Positions 25,969 through 40,775 of a DNA stretch of 64,000 bases are shown here, piece by piece. Numbering within the stretch: position 1 is the stretch's first letter; every line of letters starts with the position of its first letter. The stretch spans positions 1 through 64,000 of the forward strand of contig CAJQNS010000011.1 of NCBI GenBank assembly GCA_905479735.1. The letters run 5' to 3'. Source of the stretch: an uncultured Desulfofustis sp. (lineage in GTDB: Bacteria > Desulfobacterota > Desulfobulbia > Desulfobulbales > Desulfocapsaceae). Both the position numbers and the translations under genes were made by a program. The notes under the pieces are model-generated. The model worked only from the letters and a program-made list of their open reading frames with translations. It made no database searches and had not been told where the DNA came from.

Positions 25969-27249
25969 CTACATGATTTTTTTGAACAGCCCTCTCATTT
26001 TGTCCATCACTCCGGTGTCTTGATCGGTGGCGCTCATCTGATGGTCTCTTCCGTAGAGCACCAGACCGACCCCTGTGGTGCAGCGCGGGGTGTAAACATC
26101 ATCAACCCTGCCCCCGATTCCGCTGGGATATCCAACCCTTACCGGCATATCAAAAATCTGCTCGGCAAGATCAACGAGGTTTACCAGCAGCGAGGTGCCA
26201 CCGGTCAGAACGATTCCGGCGTTTATTCTGTTCTTCTGACCGGAGACGACCAGCTCCCGGTTGACCATTTCAAGAATCTCCACCATTCGTGCCTCGATGA
26301 TGTCAACCAGCACTTTCTGAGTCACCCGCCTCGGCTCCCGGTCACCCACCGAGGGAACGTCGACTACGTGATTGGACTTGATCACCGCTGACAGGGCGCT
26401 GCCGTAGTCCTCCTTGAGGCGTTCCGCCTCAGCCAGCGGAGTTCGCAAGCCAACGGACAGATCGTTTGTCAGGTTGTGCCCCCCCAAACCCAGTTCGCAG
26501 GTGTGCCTGATGGTCCCCTCATAGAACACGGCGATATCTGTAGTGCCGCCGCCTATGTCCACCAGGACCACACCGAGATCCATCTCGTCCTGGGTGAGCA
26601 CCGCCTTGGCGGAGGCAATTGACTCCAGCACCATATCGGCCACCTCGAGACCAGCCTTGTTGCAGCAGGTTACCAGGTTGTGCACGGCCCCGATATCGGC
26701 GGTGACGATGTGGACGTTGGTCACCAGCCTGACCCCGGTCATGCCGAGCGGATTCTGGATGCCGGTATGGTCATCGACCATATATTCCTGTGGCAATACG
26801 TGGATGACCCGCTGATTCTCAGAAATTTTCACGGTCTGAGCCGCGGTGATCACCTCCTGGACGTCGGCCTGCTTGATCTCCCTGTTGTTGATAGCCAGGA
26901 TACCTGGGCTGTTGAATCCCTTAATGTGGTTCCCGGCAATGCCGACGTAGACCGACTCAAGGTCGCAGCCGGCGATATCCTCGGCGACCTTCACCGATTT
27001 TCGGATCGAGGCCACCGTGCTCTCGATATTGACCACCACCCCTTTGCGCATCCCCAGAGAAGGTGAGGTCCCGACCCCGATAATATCGACACCATCCTGG
27101 AAGACTTCGCCGACCACGCAGCAGATTTTTGTAGTGCCGATATCGAGCCCGACCACAAGGTTGCCCCGAACATCACGTTTCTGCTCTCCGATGGGCTCGA
27201 CACCCATCTCCAACTCCTGATCTTTATTCTTGTCCATATTCAAACTCAC
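25969..27249 (-). CDS. ftsA: cell division protein FtsA
   Basis: A 426-residue actin-like ATPase. It has GLDIGTTKICCVVGE, then VDIGGGTTDIAVF and VLTGGTSLL for nucleotide binding. The end MDKMRGLFKKIM is the amphipathic membrane-targeting helix. It tethers FtsZ to the membrane. Its start overlaps ftsQ by 4 bp. The N-terminus has an extra charged stretch of about 25 residues before the fold. Confidence 0.96.
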   Translation of the reverse strand: MSLNMDKNKDQELEMGVEPIGEQKRDVRGNLVVGLDIGTTKICCVVGEVFQDGVDIIGVGTSPSLGMRKGVVVNIESTVASIRKSVKVAEDIAGCDLESVYVGIAGNHIKGFNSPGILAINNREIKQADVQEVITAAQTVKISENQRVIHVLPQEYMVDDHTGIQNPLGMTGVRLVTNVHIVTADIGAVHNLVTCCNKAGLEVADMVLESIASAKAVLTQDEMDLGVVLVDIGGGTTDIAVFYEGTIRHTCELGLGGHNLTNDLSVGLRTPLAEAERLKEDYGSALSAVIKSNHVVDVPSVGDREPRRVTQKVLVDIIEARMVEILEMVNRELVVSGQKNRINAGIVLTGGTSLLVNLVDLAEQIFDMPVRVGYPSGIGGRVDDVYTPRCTTGVGLVLYGRDHQMSATDQDTGVMDKMRGLFKKIM

Positions 27250-30568: not shown

Positions 30569-31678
30569 TTACTTCCTTGACAGATCCAGGCAGATACCCA
30601 CTATCCGCTCGGCGGCATCACTGATGCCCAGTTTCTTCATCGACTCGGACATGGTTTCGAGCCGGGTCTGATCATTGATAATTCTAAGAATCTCCTCGGC
30701 CAGCATTTGCGGAGTAAGATCCTGCTGGGCAAACATCACTGCAGCCCCGCTCTCCACATACCAAGCTCCATTTTTTTCCTGGTGGTTGTCTGCAGCATAG
30801 GGATAGGGAATCAACACCGCCGGCACACCAACCACACCGATCTCCGCCAGAGTGGTCGCTCCGGCTCGAGAGACGATAAGATCTGCCTGCTGGTAGAGCT
30901 CGGCCATATCGGTGAAAAAGGCCGAAACCAGGTGATCGATGCCCATCTCTTCATAGGCCTGCTTAACCATCTGTTCATCATCGCGGCCGGTCTGGTGAAT
31001 TACTCGGACTGAGGAAAAGGCCTCCATACCGCCTCTCAAGGCCTCGACGATCATTTCATTGACCGCGTGAGCTCCCTGGCTGCCGCCGAGAATAAGCAGT
31101 GTCCGTCGGCCATTGCCCGAACCTCTGCGGCGGCCGGCTTCAATGATTTTCTTGCGGACCGGATTTCCAGTCAGCACCGATTTTCCAGCGGGAAAAAATT
31201 TCTCGCTCTGGGGCAGCGACAGGCAGACCCTGTCGACCAGCCTTCCCAGCTTGCGGTTGGCTAGTCCGGGAACCGAGTTCTGTTCGTGTATCATCGTTGG
31301 TCGACGCAGCAGCCAGGCTGCCGCCACTACCGGCCCGGTAACGTAGCCGCCCACGCCCAGAACGACATCGGGATTAAATTTCAAGATATGGTAGCATGAC
31401 TCCATAACAGAGAGGGGCAGCACGACAAGGGCCTTGAGCAATTCCCAGACATTCTTTCCCTTGAGCCCATAAGAATGAATGGCCGTCACCGAAAAACCAG
31501 AGCGGGCAAGTGAATCGCGGTCCAGTCTCCGCCTGGTCCCGACGAACAGCACGCTGCTCTCCGGCACTGCCTCCCGCACCTGGTCGGCCGTCGCTACGGC
31601 CGGAAACAGATGACCGCCGGTACCGCCGCCGGTGAGTAGCAATCGCAATGTTGATTTATTGCTGCCGGTGTCGCTCAC
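30569..31678 (-). CDS. murG: UDP-N-acetylglucosamine transferase, lipid II synthesis
   Basis: A 369-residue GT28 glycosyltransferase. LTGGGTGGHLFPAVA is the first glycine loop, LGVGGYVTGP the second, and ILGGSQGAHAVNE the UDP-GlcNAc site. It converts lipid I to lipid II at the inner membrane face. It overlaps murD by 4 bp; the usual ftsW gene between them is absent. Confidence 0.97.
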   Translation of the reverse strand: MSDTGSNKSTLRLLLTGGGTGGHLFPAVATADQVREAVPESSVLFVGTRRRLDRDSLARSGFSVTAIHSYGLKGKNVWELLKALVVLPLSVMESCYHILKFNPDVVLGVGGYVTGPVVAAAWLLRRPTMIHEQNSVPGLANRKLGRLVDRVCLSLPQSEKFFPAGKSVLTGNPVRKKIIEAGRRRGSGNGRRTLLILGGSQGAHAVNEMIVEALRGGMEAFSSVRVIHQTGRDDEQMVKQAYEEMGIDHLVSAFFTDMAELYQQADLIVSRAGATTLAEIGVVGVPAVLIPYPYAADNHQEKNGAWYVESGAAVMFAQQDLTPQMLAEEILRIINDQTRLETMSESMKKLGISDAAERIVGICLDLSRK

Positions 31679-33054
31679 TGGTGCATCCCCGTGGGTTTTT
31701 TCTGGTGAAGCCGGTGCACCGCCTCAATGAAGCGGGCTCCTCTTTCCTTGTAATTGTCAAACATGTCGAAGCTGGCGCAGGCCGGGGAAAAAAGCACTGT
31801 GTCTCCCGGCTCGCAGGCTGCCGATGCCCGTAGAACCGCCTCATCAAGCGTGGCCGGATAATCGACCTCAACAAGATCGCCAAGCACCTCACCGATGGCT
31901 CGGGAGGCCTCACCGATAAGGATCAACTTCTTGACATGGGTGGCGACACTGTCTCTCAATAGAGTATAATCATCTCCCTTGTCCCTTCCGCCGGCGATGA
32001 GGACGATGGTGCTCTCCCGGCTGCCGATCTGGAGGATGGCGTTTTTCACGGCACCGGTGTTGGTCGCCTTCGAATCATTGATGTAAGTAATGTTATTGTA
32101 GCGGGCAACCCTCTGCAACCGATGTTCCCCGGATTCGAACTCGATGAGTGCCTGCTGCACCGCATCCTTCTCGAAGCCGAAATCTTTGGTTGCCAATAGT
32201 GCTGCAGCGCTGTTGAGCAGACCAGAGAGATTCTCCAGTCTCGAGCCGGCCAGCTCATAGGTGACGTCCGGCATGACCACCCGGCTGCCACGTATGGATG
32301 CCTCAAAATGATCTTCATGCCCAAACCTCGCCCATTCAACCCCGGTCATGGTTTCTGAGAATCGACGGCACAGAGGATCATCGCCGTTGATCACCGAAAA
32401 CGTCTTGGCCGATCCACCCTGAAACATATTCATTTTCGCCGCCGCATAACCTTCCACTGTTTCATGCCGATCGAGGTGATCCGGAGTGATATTGAGCAGG
32501 ATTCCTACCTCCGGCATGAAATCACCGCACAACTCCAGCTGAAAACTTGAAAGCTCGAGGACTACCGCCTCGTATTCTTCGTCCGAGAGTAGATACTCGC
32601 CGATCGGTGTACCGATATTTCCACCGACAAAGACATTTTTCCCCGCCGCTTTGAATATCGATCCGATCAGTTCGGTGACCGTTGTTTTGCCGTTGGTACC
32701 GGTCACCCCGATCACCGGAGCTTTGAATTTATCGGCGGCCAGGGCGAGTTCTCCAAGAATCGTGGCTCCTGACTGCCTGACCTTTTCCAAAACCGAGTGA
32801 CGGTAATTAACTCCCGGGCTGGCAACCACAATGTCAGCCCGGGCCAGAAATCCCGTACTGTGGCCGCCTCCTTCGTACTCGGCTACGCACTGGTCGAGCA
32901 ACTCCTGCTCCTTGGAGCTCAGATCAGAATAATTTCTGATGTCACTAACCAATACCCTGATCCCGCTCTCGCACAGGTAGCGGACTAGCGCCTGGCTGGC
33001 CCGGCCGAAGCCGACGACCGCCATTGTGTCCCCTATCGTTGCCTGCGGTACCAT
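31675..33054 (-). CDS. murD: UDP-N-acetylmuramoylalanine--D-glutamate ligase
   Basis: About 459 residues. MAVVGFGRASQALV starts the UDP-binding domain, GVTGTNGKTTVTELI is the ATP loop, and NDSKATNTGAV is the C-terminal signature. It adds D-Glu in the cytoplasm. ATG 33054 is preferred: the longer TTG 33087 frame would translate the mraY-tail remnant. This ATG overlaps the TGA that ends that remnant (TGATG), which suggests the original mraY-murD junction. Another possible start is ATG 33024. Confidence 0.95.
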   Translation of the reverse strand: MVPQATIGDTMAVVGFGRASQALVRYLCESGIRVLVSDIRNYSDLSSKEQELLDQCVAEYEGGGHSTGFLARADIVVASPGVNYRHSVLEKVRQSGATILGELALAADKFKAPVIGVTGTNGKTTVTELIGSIFKAAGKNVFVGGNIGTPIGEYLLSDEEYEAVVLELSSFQLELCGDFMPEVGILLNITPDHLDRHETVEGYAAAKMNMFQGGSAKTFSVINGDDPLCRRFSETMTGVEWARFGHEDHFEASIRGSRVVMPDVTYELAGSRLENLSGLLNSAAALLATKDFGFEKDAVQQALIEFESGEHRLQRVARYNNITYINDSKATNTGAVKNAILQIGSRESTIVLIAGGRDKGDDYTLLRDSVATHVKKLILIGEASRAIGEVLGDLVEVDYPATLDEAVLRASAACEPGDTVLFSPACASFDMFDNYKERGARFIEAVHRLHQKKPTGMHQ

Positions 33055-33140
33055 CAGTGTAGATTTACCCTTTGCGATGACCAGCAATGAATTATCAGGA
33101 TGATCAACAATCTCACCACGACCTAGATTTCATGCCAGCC
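33051..33140 (-). pseudogene. diverged second copy of the mraY 3' end
   Basis: Hand alignment to the true mraY 3' end (33423-33515) gives about 70 identical bases in 94 columns, with exact runs of 13 (TTTCATGCCAGCC) and 10 (ACCACGACCT). In the mraY frame it reads GWHEI, stop, VVVRLLIILII..., against [17 protein letters not shown]... in the gene. The lysine codon has become TAG and a small deletion shifts the frame later. Both copies end in CTGATGG. It overlaps the end of the 56-residue ORF and the murD start. Confidence 0.8.
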
Positions 33141-34522: not shown

Positions 34523-37500
34523 TTAACATCGTTCCATAATCTGGTCGACAACGGTGTCAAGCGCCAACCCGCGTGAAGCTTTGATCAGCAGCCAATCATC
34601 GGCCTGCAGGTGGGCAGCTCTGAAGAGTTCATCTATCCAGTCAATTATTTCGTTTTTGTCGCTAAACACCCTGATCCGGTCCGGATCCATTCCCGAAGCC
34701 TGAGCACCCTGTCTGATCTGATCGGCGAACTCTCCCACCAGGGCCAGAAAGGACAGATCCGATTGAGCTGCCACATTACCGATCGAACGGTGCAGGTCGC
34801 CACTGGCCTGGCCCAGTTCGAGCATATCTCCCAATACTGCCATTCTGCTGTGGGCCGACATTCCGCCGAGGGTCCGGAGGCCCGAAGCCATCGAGGCTGG
34901 GTTGGCATTGTAGCTGTCATTGAGAATTTTAAGTCCTAACGGTGAGGTAAGCCGCTCCATGCGTTTCGAGGAGGAGCGAAACTGCTCCAGGCCGGCAACG
35001 ATAGTGGCGAAATCGATTCCGGCAGCCTGGGAAATTGCTGCTGCAGCACAGCAGTTGCTGACGTTATGCAGTCCTGGGACACGAATGGTGAGATCTCTGC
35101 TCAATGCACCGATATGCAGAGTGAAACTCAGGTTACCGTTGTCATCGGTGGTAACTTTTTCTGCCCAAACCTCGGCTCCCCTGGCCACTCCCTGTTCAGA
35201 AACGGCAAAACCAACCTTTCTACTGCTGTACTTGTCGCTCAGTCTGACGATATGTTTGTCATCGAAATTAACCACATGGATACTTTCAGGCCTGCTCTGG
35301 TCAAACAGTTCGCCTTTGGCTGCCGCAACCCCTTCGATGGAACCGAGCCCCTCGAGATGGGCCTGGTGTACGTTGGTGATGCAGCAGATATCGGGGTCGC
35401 CGATCCTGGCCAGCCTGGCGATTTCACCAGGGCTGTTCATGCCCATCTCCAGAATCAGAGCGCGGTGATGGACAGAAACAGGCAGCAGTGAGAGCGGCAG
35501 ACCTATCAGATTATTTAAGTTGCCTGCCGTCTTCAGGACACGATCCGCTGGTCTATCCGGCCGATTCGGCCAGCGGTAGTTGAAGATGGCGCCGGTCATG
35601 TCCTTAACTGTGGTCTTCCCACAGCTTCCGGTCAGTCCGACGACCACCGGACGGCTGATCTCACGTACCCGGTCCAGTCGGTAACGGGCAAGATTGCCCA
35701 GGGCAGTCAACGTATCTGCCACCTGAACGCAGCTGACATCCCGATTATTCTGTTGAACATCGGAGACGACCAGACAGCGGGCTCCGTTTTCAACCGCGTT
35801 ATCCAGAAATTTGTGGCCGTCGAACAATTCGCCCTGCAGAGCCACGAAGATGTCATTATCGACGATTGTTCTGGTGTCGGTGGAAATGTCGCGAAAATGG
35901 CTGATTGCAGCTGTCCGGGCCACCTCCCCCCCCGTTGCTGCAGCCACGGTTTCCAGATCCCAGGCCAGACTGCTTTGCTGAGCGCAAAGCTTATCGTCAA
36001 AAAATCGGGTTTCCCGGCCGACAAGCTGGTAATCTTCATGCCCCTTGCCAGCGATGAGCACGATGTCGTCCTCTCCGCTGCGGGTCAGGGCCGCATGTAT
36101 TGCCGCGCCTCGCCCGCCAATCTCGAGGTAGCCCTGTTCCCCGGGTTCACTTCTGTTAAGCCACTCCGTAGAGCGCTGTTTCAGACCGGTTGGTGTTATT
36201 CCTTCGATAACCGCCTTGCGGATAGCGGCCGGCTCCTCTTCTCGCGGGTTGTCATCAGTCACGATGACTATATCGGCCAACCTGGCAGCTATTGCACCCA
36301 TCAGAGGCCGTTTCGATTCATCCCGGTTGCCGCCGCAGCCGAATACGCAGATCAGTCGCTCATGCTCCAGTGATTTCAGGGCGCCAAGGACTTTTTCCAG
36401 GGCGTCAGGCGTATGTGCATAATCGACGATTACGGTGGGCTGGCCGCCCGGTTTGTCCGCCAGCAGCAGGGGTTCGATTCGACCGGGAGCGCCGGCTGCG
36501 CGGCCGAGAAATTCTGCCCAACGGTCGGCCTCATACCCCAGTGCCGACAGGGCTGAAAAGGCAGCCAAAAGATTGCTGATATTAAACCTGCCGATCAAGG
36601 AGGACTCTATCTGGTAGTGCTGTCCTTTGTTATCGGCGATCTCACACCTGACACCGGCCAGTGACGCCGTATGGTCGACAAGCCTGACATCACAGTTCTC
36701 CGCCTCGCCGCAGACAACGGTAATCAACGGCAGTGACCGGCACAGCTCGGCCAGTTCCGCAGACCGATTCTCTCCATCTACTCTGCTACTTTGCTCAACC
36801 ACCACAACCGTTCCGCCGGAACGCATATGATGAGTGAACAATCTGCGTTTGGCGGCAAAATAGTCGCTCATCGTCTGGTGGTAGTCGAGGTGATCCTGAC
36901 TGAGATTGGTGAAGACGCCCAGGTCGAATTCCGTCGAGCCGAGGCGATGCTGCTGCAGGGCATGTGAAGACGCTTCCATTATCACATGGCTGACACCGCT
37001 GTCGGCCATCTTTCTCAACACGTTTTGCAGGGTCAGCGGATCGGGAGTGGTCAACGGAGCCGGTTCACGTATGCTTCTCCCATTGCCAAGGTCATAGCGA
37101 TACTCGACCGTACCGATCACCCCGGTCTGAACCCCAAGCTGCCGCAAGGTTTGTTCAATGAGATAGCAGACGGTAGTCTTGCCGTTGGTACCGGTGATGC
37201 CGACCATCGTCATTTCCGAGGCAGGATGTCTATAAAAGGCCGAGGCCAGTGGTGCCAAGGCTGCCCGGGAGTCTACCACCTCGATGACGGCTATCTCCAG
37301 GGTGGACAGATCCTCCTGCTCGATAGCCCCCCTCTCAACCACAACTGCCAAGGCTCCGCGCTGCACTGCTTCAGCGATGGATCGATGGCCGTCATGTTTG
37401 TCGCCCTTGATCGCTACGAACAAGGAAGACGGACCGGCGGCCCTGCTGTCGTCGCAAAGTCCTGCTATGATGACAGAGTCATCGATTAAACGAGTCGAGA

Positions 37501-37588
37501 CCCAGCCGGAAAGACTGACCAAAAGCTCAGCAAGGGGTATCGAATAATTGCGCTCGGTCCCTCGACTTATGTGGGCAATTGAATTCAA
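34523..37588 (-). CDS. murE-murF: MurE-MurF fusion (two peptidoglycan ligases in one chain)
   Basis: A 1021-residue protein. Residues about 1-533 are MurE: ATP loop GITGTNGKTT (130-139) and DNPR (446-449), the signature for meso-diaminopimelate. Residues about 540-1021 are MurF: GLTGSCGKTTVKDM (651-664) and ILNDSYNANPASM. One polypeptide should add diaminopimelate and then D-Ala-D-Ala to the UDP-MurNAc-peptide. The MurE C-terminal GKGHEDYQ block is complete, and MurF starts almost at once after FFDDK, so the link is short. No frameshift is present. It follows ftsI by 5 bp. Confidence 0.95.
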   Translation of the reverse strand: MNSIAHISRGTERNYSIPLAELLVSLSGWVSTRLIDDSVIIAGLCDDSRAAGPSSLFVAIKGDKHDGHRSIAEAVQRGALAVVVERGAIEQEDLSTLEIAVIEVVDSRAALAPLASAFYRHPASEMTMVGITGTNGKTTVCYLIEQTLRQLGVQTGVIGTVEYRYDLGNGRSIREPAPLTTPDPLTLQNVLRKMADSGVSHVIMEASSHALQQHRLGSTEFDLGVFTNLSQDHLDYHQTMSDYFAAKRRLFTHHMRSGGTVVVVEQSSRVDGENRSAELAELCRSLPLITVVCGEAENCDVRLVDHTASLAGVRCEIADNKGQHYQIESSLIGRFNISNLLAAFSALSALGYEADRWAEFLGRAAGAPGRIEPLLLADKPGGQPTVIVDYAHTPDALEKVLGALKSLEHERLICVFGCGGNRDESKRPLMGAIAARLADIVIVTDDNPREEEPAAIRKAVIEGITPTGLKQRSTEWLNRSEPGEQGYLEIGGRGAAIHAALTRSGEDDIVLIAGKGHEDYQLVGRETRFFDDKLCAQQSSLAWDLETVAAATGGEVARTAAISHFRDISTDTRTIVDNDIFVALQGELFDGHKFLDNAVENGARCLVVSDVQQNNRDVSCVQVADTLTALGNLARYRLDRVREISRPVVVGLTGSCGKTTVKDMTGAIFNYRWPNRPDRPADRVLKTAGNLNNLIGLPLSLLPVSVHHRALILEMGMNSPGEIARLARIGDPDICCITNVHQAHLEGLGSIEGVAAAKGELFDQSRPESIHVVNFDDKHIVRLSDKYSSRKVGFAVSEQGVARGAEVWAEKVTTDDNGNLSFTLHIGALSRDLTIRVPGLHNVSNCCAAAAISQAAGIDFATIVAGLEQFRSSSKRMERLTSPLGLKILNDSYNANPASMASGLRTLGGMSAHSRMAVLGDMLELGQASGDLHRSIGNVAAQSDLSFLALVGEFADQIRQGAQASGMDPDRIRVFSDKNEIIDWIDELFRAAHLQADDWLLIKASRGLALDTVVDQIMERC

Positions 37589-37593
37589 CGTCT

Positions 37594-39480
37594 CTATTCC
37601 GGCTCGGTAATCTGTGGTCGCCTGTAGCCAGGGTCGACTGCATCCCTCTCCAGTATGAGAGTTACCCTGGCACCCGGCTTCAATTTAGTGCCGGCCGGAG
37701 GGTGTTGGGAAACCACCCGTCCAGTGCCCTGCACTTCTATTTCGACATTGCTGCCCTGCAACAAGCGTAAAGACTTTCTGAGGCTCATTCCGGTAAATGA
37801 CACAATTTCTATCTCGATTCCGTCATCTTCGGGGCCGTCTTCAAGCGACTGCCCCTGCACCGGAGACAGGCGATAATTCATCTCCTCCTTTTCTCTGGGG
37901 CTCATCATATCGGACAGGTTTTTCATGACCTGCTGCAGAGCTGCGATCGATCCGATAATCTTCGCCGCCTCCCCTGCCGGAGAACGATCCATTTGTTGAG
38001 CCACCTGGTAGCCCGGCCCGGTAGAGGTAACCAGCAGCACAAGATCCGGTTTATCCTGGGGGATTAGTACCAGACCTAGATAGTGATGAAACAACTGCTC
38101 ATTAACTGACTCTATCACCGAACGGCTTTCTCCCTGCACCATGAGAGAGCCCAGAGGACCCCGCTCACCCAACCCTGCGGCCAGCCTTTCGGCCTCACCC
38201 GCTATTCCATCTGAAAGAATCCCTGAAGCAGGCTCCTTTTCCAGGTCATCGAGCAGAAATTCCTGCTGATTCTTGCGCAGCACGAACCTTTTAGCGCCGT
38301 GGGGCGTGATGTTTAGACCACCATTGAGTGCCCTGGTCACCGCAGTGAGGATCTCCAGCGGCGTCTGAGTTTCAGGAACGGTCTCAAAATTTACATTTTT
38401 CTGCGGCCCGCGTTTAAACGGAACTGCGCTGGTTTCAGGAGGCGGTACTGTAATAAAATCAAACTCCAGATTGCCGTCGGCCCCGAGTCTGTTCCAGAGC
38501 TGCAGTTGAACTCCCAGTTTCCACTGTTCTGCACCAATACTCCAGGGCAGCGGCCCAGAAATGTCACTATCCTGACTCTCCAGGAGCGAGAGATCTCTGA
38601 GAAAAATTTTGAACACATCCGGAACGGTGATCTTCTCGTTGAACAAATCACTAAAGTTTGTTTCCGAGTAGCTGTGAAACTTGTTCGGATCGAACGAGGG
38701 TGTCTGCGTATAGCCGACCAGCCCTCCGGTTGACGCCTCCATCACCAATGCACCATAACTGTTGCCGGGATTGGCGGCCGACAGCCGTTTCAAATAGTCA
38801 TCTAGGATTCGCTGTATTTTAGAGTCAATGGTAAGGATGAGATGCCTGCCGTCCACACCGGGTCGGGTGTCACCCATCTTGAGAAGCTCGTTGGTGTCAT
38901 CTTTTTTCAGCCGGAACCTGGCTTCCAGCTTGTTGAGATACTGTTCGATACCGAAAAGTCCGGTATCTCCCTCGACAAAACCAATGAGATGAGCTGCCGA
39001 TTCACGCTGTGGATAATAGCGGATATACTCTCTGTGCAGATGAACGCCCTGGAAATCGAGCTCTTTGATCTCGTCTTCCTGATCCTGGCTGATGTCCTTG
39101 GCTAACCAAACCCTCAGACGTCCTTTCCCAATTCGATCGTATAGATCGCTCTCGGAAGTTTCAAGTATGGCCGATATTGGGCCTATCACTTGATTGACGT
39201 CCTCGATTTCTCGGATATTGGCATACACGGACACCCGTTCGTAGGAGATGGCAAATTCTTTATAGTTTCTGTCGTATATCGTTCCCCTGGTTATCTCTTG
39301 GTCGGTTGCTGTCTGTTTCTTCCCAATATTTAATGCTTTACCGGCCTGCTCCCAGAGAAGCAGTGTCCGCTCATCTTCTAACCAGGCCCAGATTGCAGCT
39401 ACGCCAACTAAAAGAACAATCAGAAAAACCAGCCGCCGTCGTCCGACGCCTTGAGTACGCAGACGAGACCGCTTGCCCAT
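37594..39480 (-). CDS. ftsI: FtsI/PBP3 homologue lacking transpeptidase catalytic motifs, with C-terminal PASTA
   Basis: A 628-residue protein in the ftsI position. Residues about 17-35 are the membrane anchor. Residues 60-190 are the PBP dimerisation domain (EITRGTIYDRN, GIEQYL). The transpeptidase fold begins normally (LTIDSKIQ, TPSFDPNKF), but the SxxK site reads P-D288-V-F-K291, with Asp in place of the acylated Ser. No SxN is found in the strongly shortened middle. TPLEILTAVTRALNGG matches the usual TPLQ block. The KTG site reads ESR (451-453). A single PASTA domain ends the protein (about 554-611). The frame is continuous, so it is kept as a protein: a likely pseudoenzyme scaffold. Confidence 0.88.
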   Translation of the reverse strand: MGKRSRLRTQGVGRRRLVFLIVLLVGVAAIWAWLEDERTLLLWEQAGKALNIGKKQTATDQEITRGTIYDRNYKEFAISYERVSVYANIREIEDVNQVIGPISAILETSESDLYDRIGKGRLRVWLAKDISQDQEDEIKELDFQGVHLHREYIRYYPQRESAAHLIGFVEGDTGLFGIEQYLNKLEARFRLKKDDTNELLKMGDTRPGVDGRHLILTIDSKIQRILDDYLKRLSAANPGNSYGALVMEASTGGLVGYTQTPSFDPNKFHSYSETNFSDLFNEKITVPDVFKIFLRDLSLLESQDSDISGPLPWSIGAEQWKLGVQLQLWNRLGADGNLEFDFITVPPPETSAVPFKRGPQKNVNFETVPETQTPLEILTAVTRALNGGLNITPHGAKRFVLRKNQQEFLLDDLEKEPASGILSDGIAGEAERLAAGLGERGPLGSLMVQGESRSVIESVNEQLFHHYLGLVLIPQDKPDLVLLVTSTGPGYQVAQQMDRSPAGEAAKIIGSIAALQQVMKNLSDMMSPREKEEMNYRLSPVQGQSLEDGPEDDGIEIEIVSFTGMSLRKSLRLLQGSNVEIEVQGTGRVVSQHPPAGTKLKPGARVTLILERDAVDPGYRRPQITEPE

Positions 39481-39489
39481 GTCTCCACA

Positions 39490-39858
39490 TTACCTGAGCT
39501 TGAATACCTGTTTTTCCTCGGGGACAAAAAGCGCCAGCTCTTCACCTGCCCGCTTGAGTACCTGCTTTTCAGACATCATATTTGCGCGCTGGGCCAGCAA
39601 TATTATCTGATCTTCCCTGAGTTGATGCCGAGCCGCCTCGATTGCTTGAATTTTCTGTTCTCCGCGGGTGATCGAAAAATTGAGCCAGAGATTGATGCAA
39701 AAAACGACAAAGACCACTGCCAGCGCAATCTTTGACGCGGCCAGCCACAGAGCGCTACCACCCGGCAAACCAAATGCTTTTTTCCTGCGGAACTGTTGTC
39801 TGAACTTCGTGTCGAGCGTTGACTGTGACACGATTCTGATCGAGTTCTGGTAATTCAT
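39490..39858 (-). CDS. ftsL: FtsL-like divisome protein
   Basis: A 122-residue bitopic protein. It has a basic cytoplasmic N-terminus, one transmembrane helix (IALAVVFVVFCINLWLNF), then a heptad-rich periplasmic coiled coil (ITRGEQKIQAIEAARHQLRED) and a short tail. Position between rsmH and ftsI and architecture both fit FtsL, which with FtsB links FtsQ to FtsW/FtsI. Sequence conservation in this family is low. Confidence 0.82.
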   Translation of the reverse strand: MNYQNSIRIVSQSTLDTKFRQQFRRKKAFGLPGGSALWLAASKIALAVVFVVFCINLWLNFSITRGEQKIQAIEAARHQLREDQIILLAQRANMMSEKQVLKRAGEELALFVPEEKQVFKLR

Positions 39859-39872
39859 CTGGTCCCCCCCTG

Positions 39873-40775
39873 TTAGGCCGCTCTCTCAGCCACCCTGAGC
39901 CGGCTGCTTCTGGCTCGCGGATTCTTTCTTATTTCACTGTCGTTCGGAGTGATTGGCTTTCTGGTTATTACTTTTAGCTCCTGGGTCCGAGCCAATGTCC
40001 GCTTGACAATTCTGTCTTCCAGCGAATGAAACGAGATGATACAGATTCTGCCCTTCGGCTTTAAATGATCCGGCACCTTTTCCAGAATTTCTCCCAGGTT
40101 GGCCAGCTCTTCATTAACGGCAATTCGAAGGGCCTGGAACACTTTGGTAGCCACATGAATCTTCGCTGGATGAAACTTCCGCGGGATTGACGCCCCGACA
40201 ATTTGAGCCAGCTGGCCTGTCATCTCGATTTTTCTCTTTTTCCTCTCCTTGACAATTTTGGCGGCAATCCTTCTAGCCTGCTTTTCATCACCGTAGTAGT
40301 AGAAAATGTCGGCCAACTCTTCCTCCGTCGAATCAGCCACGATTTGCGCTGCGGTAACCGACCGCCGACGGTCCATTCTCATATCCAGCGGCTCGTTTCT
40401 GTTGAAACTGAAACCGCGCCCCTCGGCTTCGAGCTGCAGGGATGAGAGGCCGATATCGATCAGAATGCCATCCACCGCCTGCACTCCCGCCTCCTTGAGG
40501 CCATGATCGATTTCCTTGAAATTCCGTTGAACTACATGGAGCCGATCCCTGCAACTCCCGACATTCTCAAGCCCCAGCTTGATGGCCTCTTCGTCCCAGT
40601 CAAAGGCGACAACTTTTCCGTCGGGTGCCGACCTCTTTAAAATTTCTTTCGTGTGCCCGCCAAGACCGAAGGTACCGTCCATGTAAATACCTCCGGGAAT
40701 TACCTGAAGCATCCCCACCGCTTCTTCCAGGAGGACCGGTTGATGTACCTTCCTCAGGGAAGAGTCGGTCATCAA
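39873..40775 (-). CDS. rsmH: 16S rRNA (cytosine-1402-N4) methyltransferase
   Basis: A 300-residue SAM methyltransferase (MraW). HQPVLLEEAVGML is the usual start, DGTFGLGGHTKEIL the SAM motif, DIGLSSLQLE, RGFSFNRNEPLDMRMD, and SFHSLEDRIVKR near the end. It overlaps mraZ by 4 bp. Confidence 0.97.
   Translation of the reverse strand: MMTDSSLRKVHQPVLLEEAVGMLQVIPGGIYMDGTFGLGGHTKEILKRSAPDGKVVAFDWDEEAIKLGLENVGSCRDRLHVVQRNFKEIDHGLKEAGVQAVDGILIDIGLSSLQLEAEGRGFSFNRNEPLDMRMDRRRSVTAAQIVADSTEEELADIFYYYGDEKQARRIAAKIVKERKKRKIEMTGQLAQIVGASIPRKFHPAKIHVATKVFQALRIAVNEELANLGEILEKVPDHLKPKGRICIISFHSLEDRIVKRTLARTQELKVITRKPITPNDSEIRKNPRARSSRLRVAERAA

Follow-up and report, generated by a model that had tools for sequence, protein, structure and literature searches.

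Sulfur-cycling bacteria of the class Desulfobulbia, cable bacteria included, keep an FtsI without catalytic residues and have no FtsW

The window, that is the whole stretch of 64,000 nucleotides analysed here, is part of a Desulfofustis-like genome in the order Desulfobulbales and contains a dcw cluster composed of mraZ, rsmH, a small ftsL-like open reading frame (ORF), ftsI, a murE-murF fusion, mraY, murD, murG, murC, murB, ftsQ, ftsA and ftsZ. The ftsI gene lies between rsmH and the ftsL-like ORF on one side and murE on the other, and the same neighbours are found in its relatives (family f1). The genes surrounding ftsI for which coordinates are given are the following:

39873..40775, reverse strand: rsmH (mraW), PF01795, E 1.2e-100
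39490..39858, reverse strand: ftsL-like ORF of 122 aa between rsmH and ftsI, with a single hydrophobic segment and, after it, a polar stretch that is probably coiled-coil
34523..37588, reverse strand: murE-murF fusion of 1021 aa, two copies each of Mur_ligase_M, Mur_ligase_C and Mur_ligase
31675..33087, reverse strand: murD, from the ORF listing, overlapping murG
30569..31678, reverse strand: murG, PF04101 and PF03033
27246..28238, reverse strand: ftsQ, POTRA_1 and FtsQ_DivIB_C
25969..27249, reverse strand: ftsA, PF14450
24555..25853, reverse strand: ftsZ, PF00091 and PF12327

The ftsL-like ORF has no Pfam match. The genes murE and murF are joined in one ORF, in which the set of Mur ligase domains occurs twice in full. 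A preliminary description of this DNA had taken the dcw cluster to be full; ftsW, however, was not found in it, and at the usual site of this gene the ends of murD and murG share 4 bases (31675-31678) instead. A remnant of ftsW between murD and murG was considered and rejected, as the overlapping genes leave no room for one.

The ORF listing and its translation give ftsI as a single uninterrupted ORF, in which we distinguish the following parts:

37594..39480, reverse strand: ftsI pseudoenzyme gene, 628 aa, identified by its ORF, its orthologues and a full-length profile match
39376..39432, reverse strand: N-terminal membrane anchor, residues about 17-35, a hydropathy peak without a juxtamembrane R-x-x-x-L-Q
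38965..39291, reverse strand: well-conserved pedestal (PBP_dimer domain), residues 64-172, Pfam PF03717, E 8.5e-13
37846..38760, reverse strand: degenerate transpeptidase domain, residues 241-545, with the alpha/beta core kept and the SxN-bearing stretch gone
38608..38619, reverse strand: position of SxxK, here D288-V-F-K291, from translation and alignment
38122..38130, reverse strand: position of KTG, here E451-S452-R453, from translation and alignment
37651..37800, reverse strand: C-terminal PASTA domain, residues 561-610, Pfam PF03793, E 4.2e-10

The preliminary description had placed an uninterrupted 628-residue protein with an anchor, a dimerisation domain and a C-terminal PASTA domain in the ftsI position, and ORF, gene order, hydropathy and Pfam matches all agree with it. 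The Pfam search gave no match to the Transpeptidase domain (PF00905) in the window protein. Comparison of the family profile with that of intact FtsIs from other classes nevertheless aligns the two over their full length (hhalign probability 100, E 3.4e-92, 552 columns), which identifies the window protein as an FtsI orthologue and not another protein. Within the class Desulfobulbia, this is the genuine FtsI orthologue encoded in the dcw cluster.

We then compared the three transpeptidase motifs with those of intact FtsIs. D288-V-F-K291 aligns with the S-x-F-K of outgroup FtsIs, E451-S-R453 occupies the KTG site and the stretch that bears SxN is missing, so that the alignment bears out the loss of all three motifs as first read from the sequence. 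The distance between the first motif and the TPLQ-like block had been put at roughly half the usual length but measures about 70% of it, with 82 residues (K291-T373) in the window protein compared with 116 (K294-T410) in an intact FtsI (L173). As a yardstick for motif scoring we used 23 intact outgroup FtsI sequences, in all of which the S, K, S, N, K and T are kept, together with the G of KTG in 22 (one reads KTA). In the homologous columns, not one of 102 non-redundant Desulfobulbia orthologues retains SxxK, SxN or KTG. We also looked for intact motifs in other parts of the protein and rejected this possibility, the few regular-expression matches all falling outside homologous positions. Since SxxK and KTG are both lost from their homologous sites and no relative in the class has intact motifs, the reading of this protein as a pseudoenzyme stands. 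In many members (10/22 and 26/32 in two sets) Pfam still recognises what remains of the transpeptidase fold, so automatic annotation can call these normal penicillin-binding proteins (PBPs).

FtsI orthologues were identified in 36 of 38 relatives. The 102 orthologues represent 12 or more families of the order Desulfobulbales, with closed or single-contig genomes and cultured type strains included, and many of the sampled genomes are metagenome-assembled. Among the cultured organisms are Desulfofustis glycolicus DSM 9705, Desulfoprunum benzoelyticum and Desulforhopalus singaporensis, and the sample also holds one cable bacterium, Candidatus Electronema. Throughout the class the reading frame is open, except for a split copy in one genome (G018). 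In that genome (L027, 841-2775) the orthologue is found in two ORFs of 240 and 438 aa, which reflects a frameshift or a sequencing error. Between close relatives, the dN/dS of ftsI is 0.12-0.14 overall and 0.09-0.12 over the degenerate transpeptidase region, rough figures given that some pairs are close to saturated at synonymous sites. Open frames and a dN/dS of about 0.1, found in the degenerate region as well, indicate purifying selection and uphold the earlier view of a pseudoenzyme that is not decaying. We reject a sequencing or assembly artefact on the strength of the open frames in orthologues from closed genomes and type strains.

A class-wide search recovered a single SEDS locus in 112 of 115 Desulfobulbia genomes, counting as single one genome (G035) in which two matches represent one split gene. 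The sole SEDS protein of the window genome is RodA, encoded directly after PBP2, and in the other genomes of the class the SEDS locus likewise directly adjoins the PBP2 match. With one SEDS per genome, located at PBP2, the cognate SEDS partner FtsW was not found. Strong class B transpeptidase matches (E below 1e-60) likewise number one per genome in 112 of the 115, and this one is PBP2. The transpeptidases of the window genome are one PBP2 beside rodA and two class A PBPs, both with transglycosylase and transpeptidase domains. A second FtsI was searched for in this genome and rejected, PBP2 next to rodA being the only other monofunctional class B PBP. Class A PBP transglycosylase matches are found in 114 of the 115 genomes, at 1 to 6 each, FtsB/DivIC in 18 of 18 genomes searched and L,D-transpeptidases in 18 of 18 genomes checked. 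Taken together, we state with high confidence that FtsI is catalytically dead, having no nucleophile, no SxN and no KTG, that FtsW is absent, and that the gene is under purifying selection with its pedestal and PASTA domain kept.

We also surveyed other classes of the phylum, most of which have two SEDS genes in our sample. Of 21 genomes with a verified intact FtsI on an unbroken contig, all have a SEDS gene no more than about 10 kb from it, a tally counted by hand from tables; in three of these (G196, G200 and G280) the copy near the intact FtsI is the only SEDS. Two families resemble Desulfobulbia: f31 (G195, G232 and G267) and f69 (G277) have one SEDS each and no dcw FtsW, and their dcw-type FtsI is also without the motifs (L171, L172, L174 and L198 in f31, L195 in f69). 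The single SEDS adjoins mreC in G195 and G277, the two genomes of these families in which mreC was sought. FtsW and FtsI function may have been lost once or several times: the RpoB tree does not separate the two cases, and a single clade of losers is not rejected by the AU test (p 0.39). In two further genomes, G206 (f42) and G207 (f43), there is one SEDS, and the FtsI profile finds nothing beyond weak matches; the class B PBP adjoining the SEDS of G207 is PBP2-like. FtsI may have been lost altogether in these two.

With both the catalytic residues and FtsW lost, septal wall building in Desulfobulbia must differ from the textbook route. We favour, if by a little, the hypothesis that the dead FtsI is a non-catalytic division protein which, after the loss of FtsW, recruits or regulates a class A PBP making the septal wall. 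Upon loss of FtsW, FtsI would have turned into a non-catalytic subunit of the divisome, held there by its anchor, by its pedestal binding FtsQ/FtsL/FtsB and by its PASTA domain. It would no longer drive a SEDS polymerase and would recruit or regulate a bifunctional class A PBP, which in turn would polymerise and crosslink septal peptidoglycan. That the dead FtsI stays in the divisome through FtsQLB is suggested by the retention of the pedestal and its partners. That class A PBPs probably make the septal wall is suggested by the absence of other dedicated enzymes and by the Clostridioides difficile precedent discussed below; we infer their link to the dead FtsI, and give this part of the proposal an even chance. 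Likewise, a role as scaffold is a positive function that we infer for the dead protein. In its widest form, which we consider evenly balanced between right and wrong, the proposal is that a whole walled, FtsZ-containing Gram-negative class divides without a dedicated SEDS-class B septal synthase and has FtsI as a pseudoenzyme regulator of class A PBPs, families f31 and f69 having done likewise, possibly independently.

The main rival explanation is that RodA-PBP2, the last SEDS/class B pair, builds both the side wall and the septum, with the dead FtsI only recruiting this pair to the FtsZ ring. RodA and PBP2 are both intact and nearly universal in the class, and mreC is found in most genomes checked. 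However, the dead FtsI is without the juxtamembrane motif of class B PBPs that have a SEDS partner: R-x-x-x-L-Q is found in 31 of 31 PBP2 sequences and, among 30 scored intact FtsIs, in 23 (with close variants in most of the remainder), compared with 0 of 93 scored dead Desulfobulbia FtsIs and 0 of 4 from f31 and f69. The motif may itself contact SEDS proteins, and its loss fits a loss of contact with FtsW. Three Desulfobulbia genomes (G061, G151 and G169) show no match to RodA/SEDS or MreC and may have lost the Rod system. One of them, G061, is 99% complete and has a dead FtsI and three class A transglycosylase matches, yet no RodA, PBP2 or MreC match; this counts only weakly against a septal role of RodA-PBP2, since mre-mrdA-rodA form one cluster and a single assembly gap could explain the absences. 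We consider such double duty of RodA-PBP2 possible but improbable.

Alternatively, the dead FtsI may be a structural link and peptidoglycan sensor only, its PASTA domain binding the wall and its pedestal binding FtsQLB, and touch no synthase. The pedestal and the PASTA domain are indeed its most conserved parts, with conservation of 0.50 and 0.55 in dead FtsIs versus 0.57 and 0.52 in intact ones, while the middle of the transpeptidase domain scores 0.35 versus 0.66. Against this, the degenerate core still folds in the predicted structure and purifying selection acts on it, which makes it probable that this core has a separate partner. The AlphaFold model of the window FtsI has a pLDDT of 85.2 and a pTM of 0.73, its best Foldseek matches in the PDB are SpoVD, PBP2x and PBP3, and the model of a distant family member is similar (pLDDT 82.7). 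We therefore regard a role confined to linking and sensing as unlikely. Still less credible is an FtsI that remains enzymatic through a new active site: the collapsed domain does have new conserved residues, for example P312-W313-S314 and D341, but all three catalytic motifs are gone, and at 65-80% across the order the alternative residues are conserved below what is expected of catalytic ones. Finally, a decaying pseudogene or an assembly error, which the lost motifs might have suggested, is refuted by frames that are open class-wide, closed genomes and type strains included, and by the dN/dS of about 0.1, and we give it practically no weight.

The FtsW-FtsI pair has been portrayed as universally indispensable for making the septal wall, with C. 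difficile presented as the exception (PMC10693644). Desulfobulbia are a class of sulfur-cycling bacteria, cable bacteria included, that keep an FtsI without catalytic residues and are without FtsW. If our proposal is true, the exception extends to a widespread Gram-negative class. Naturally dead FtsIs allow what FtsI does without catalysis to be told apart from its catalysis, and they yield clear, testable predictions of drug response.

The absence of ftsW, ftsN and zipA from four Desulfobulbaceae has already been noted in a survey of cable bacteria and Desulfobulbus (PMC7873302). In the relevant passages of that survey, FtsI is taken as present and active, septal synthesis is ascribed to its activity, and there is no mention of a lost active site. 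The openly licensed literature yielded no report of an FtsI pseudoenzyme, in this class or otherwise. The Desulfobulbia protein resembles FtsI/PBP3 in its synteny, single N-terminal anchor, PBP_dimer pedestal, transpeptidase-like core and C-terminal PASTA domain. It differs from FtsI/PBP3 in having no SxxK, SxN or KTG, no SxN-bearing stretch and no R-x-x-x-L-Q, and in belonging to a genome without FtsW.

The likeness to C. difficile lies in the absence of a functional FtsW-FtsI pair and the presence of bifunctional class A PBPs in both. Vegetative cells of C. difficile, a species without an FtsW/FtsI pair, divide by means of a class A PBP (PMC10693644), and the class B PBP3 of this species promotes septum synthesis without catalytic activity of its own, in complex with a class A PBP (PMC12539705). 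Unlike Desulfobulbia, C. difficile still has an active SEDS-class B pair in its dcw cluster, SpoVE/SpoVD, which serves sporulation. Moreover, catalysis by C. difficile PBP3 is dispensable and not naturally lost, whereas in Desulfobulbia it is the FtsI orthologue itself that is dead, throughout a whole Gram-negative class.
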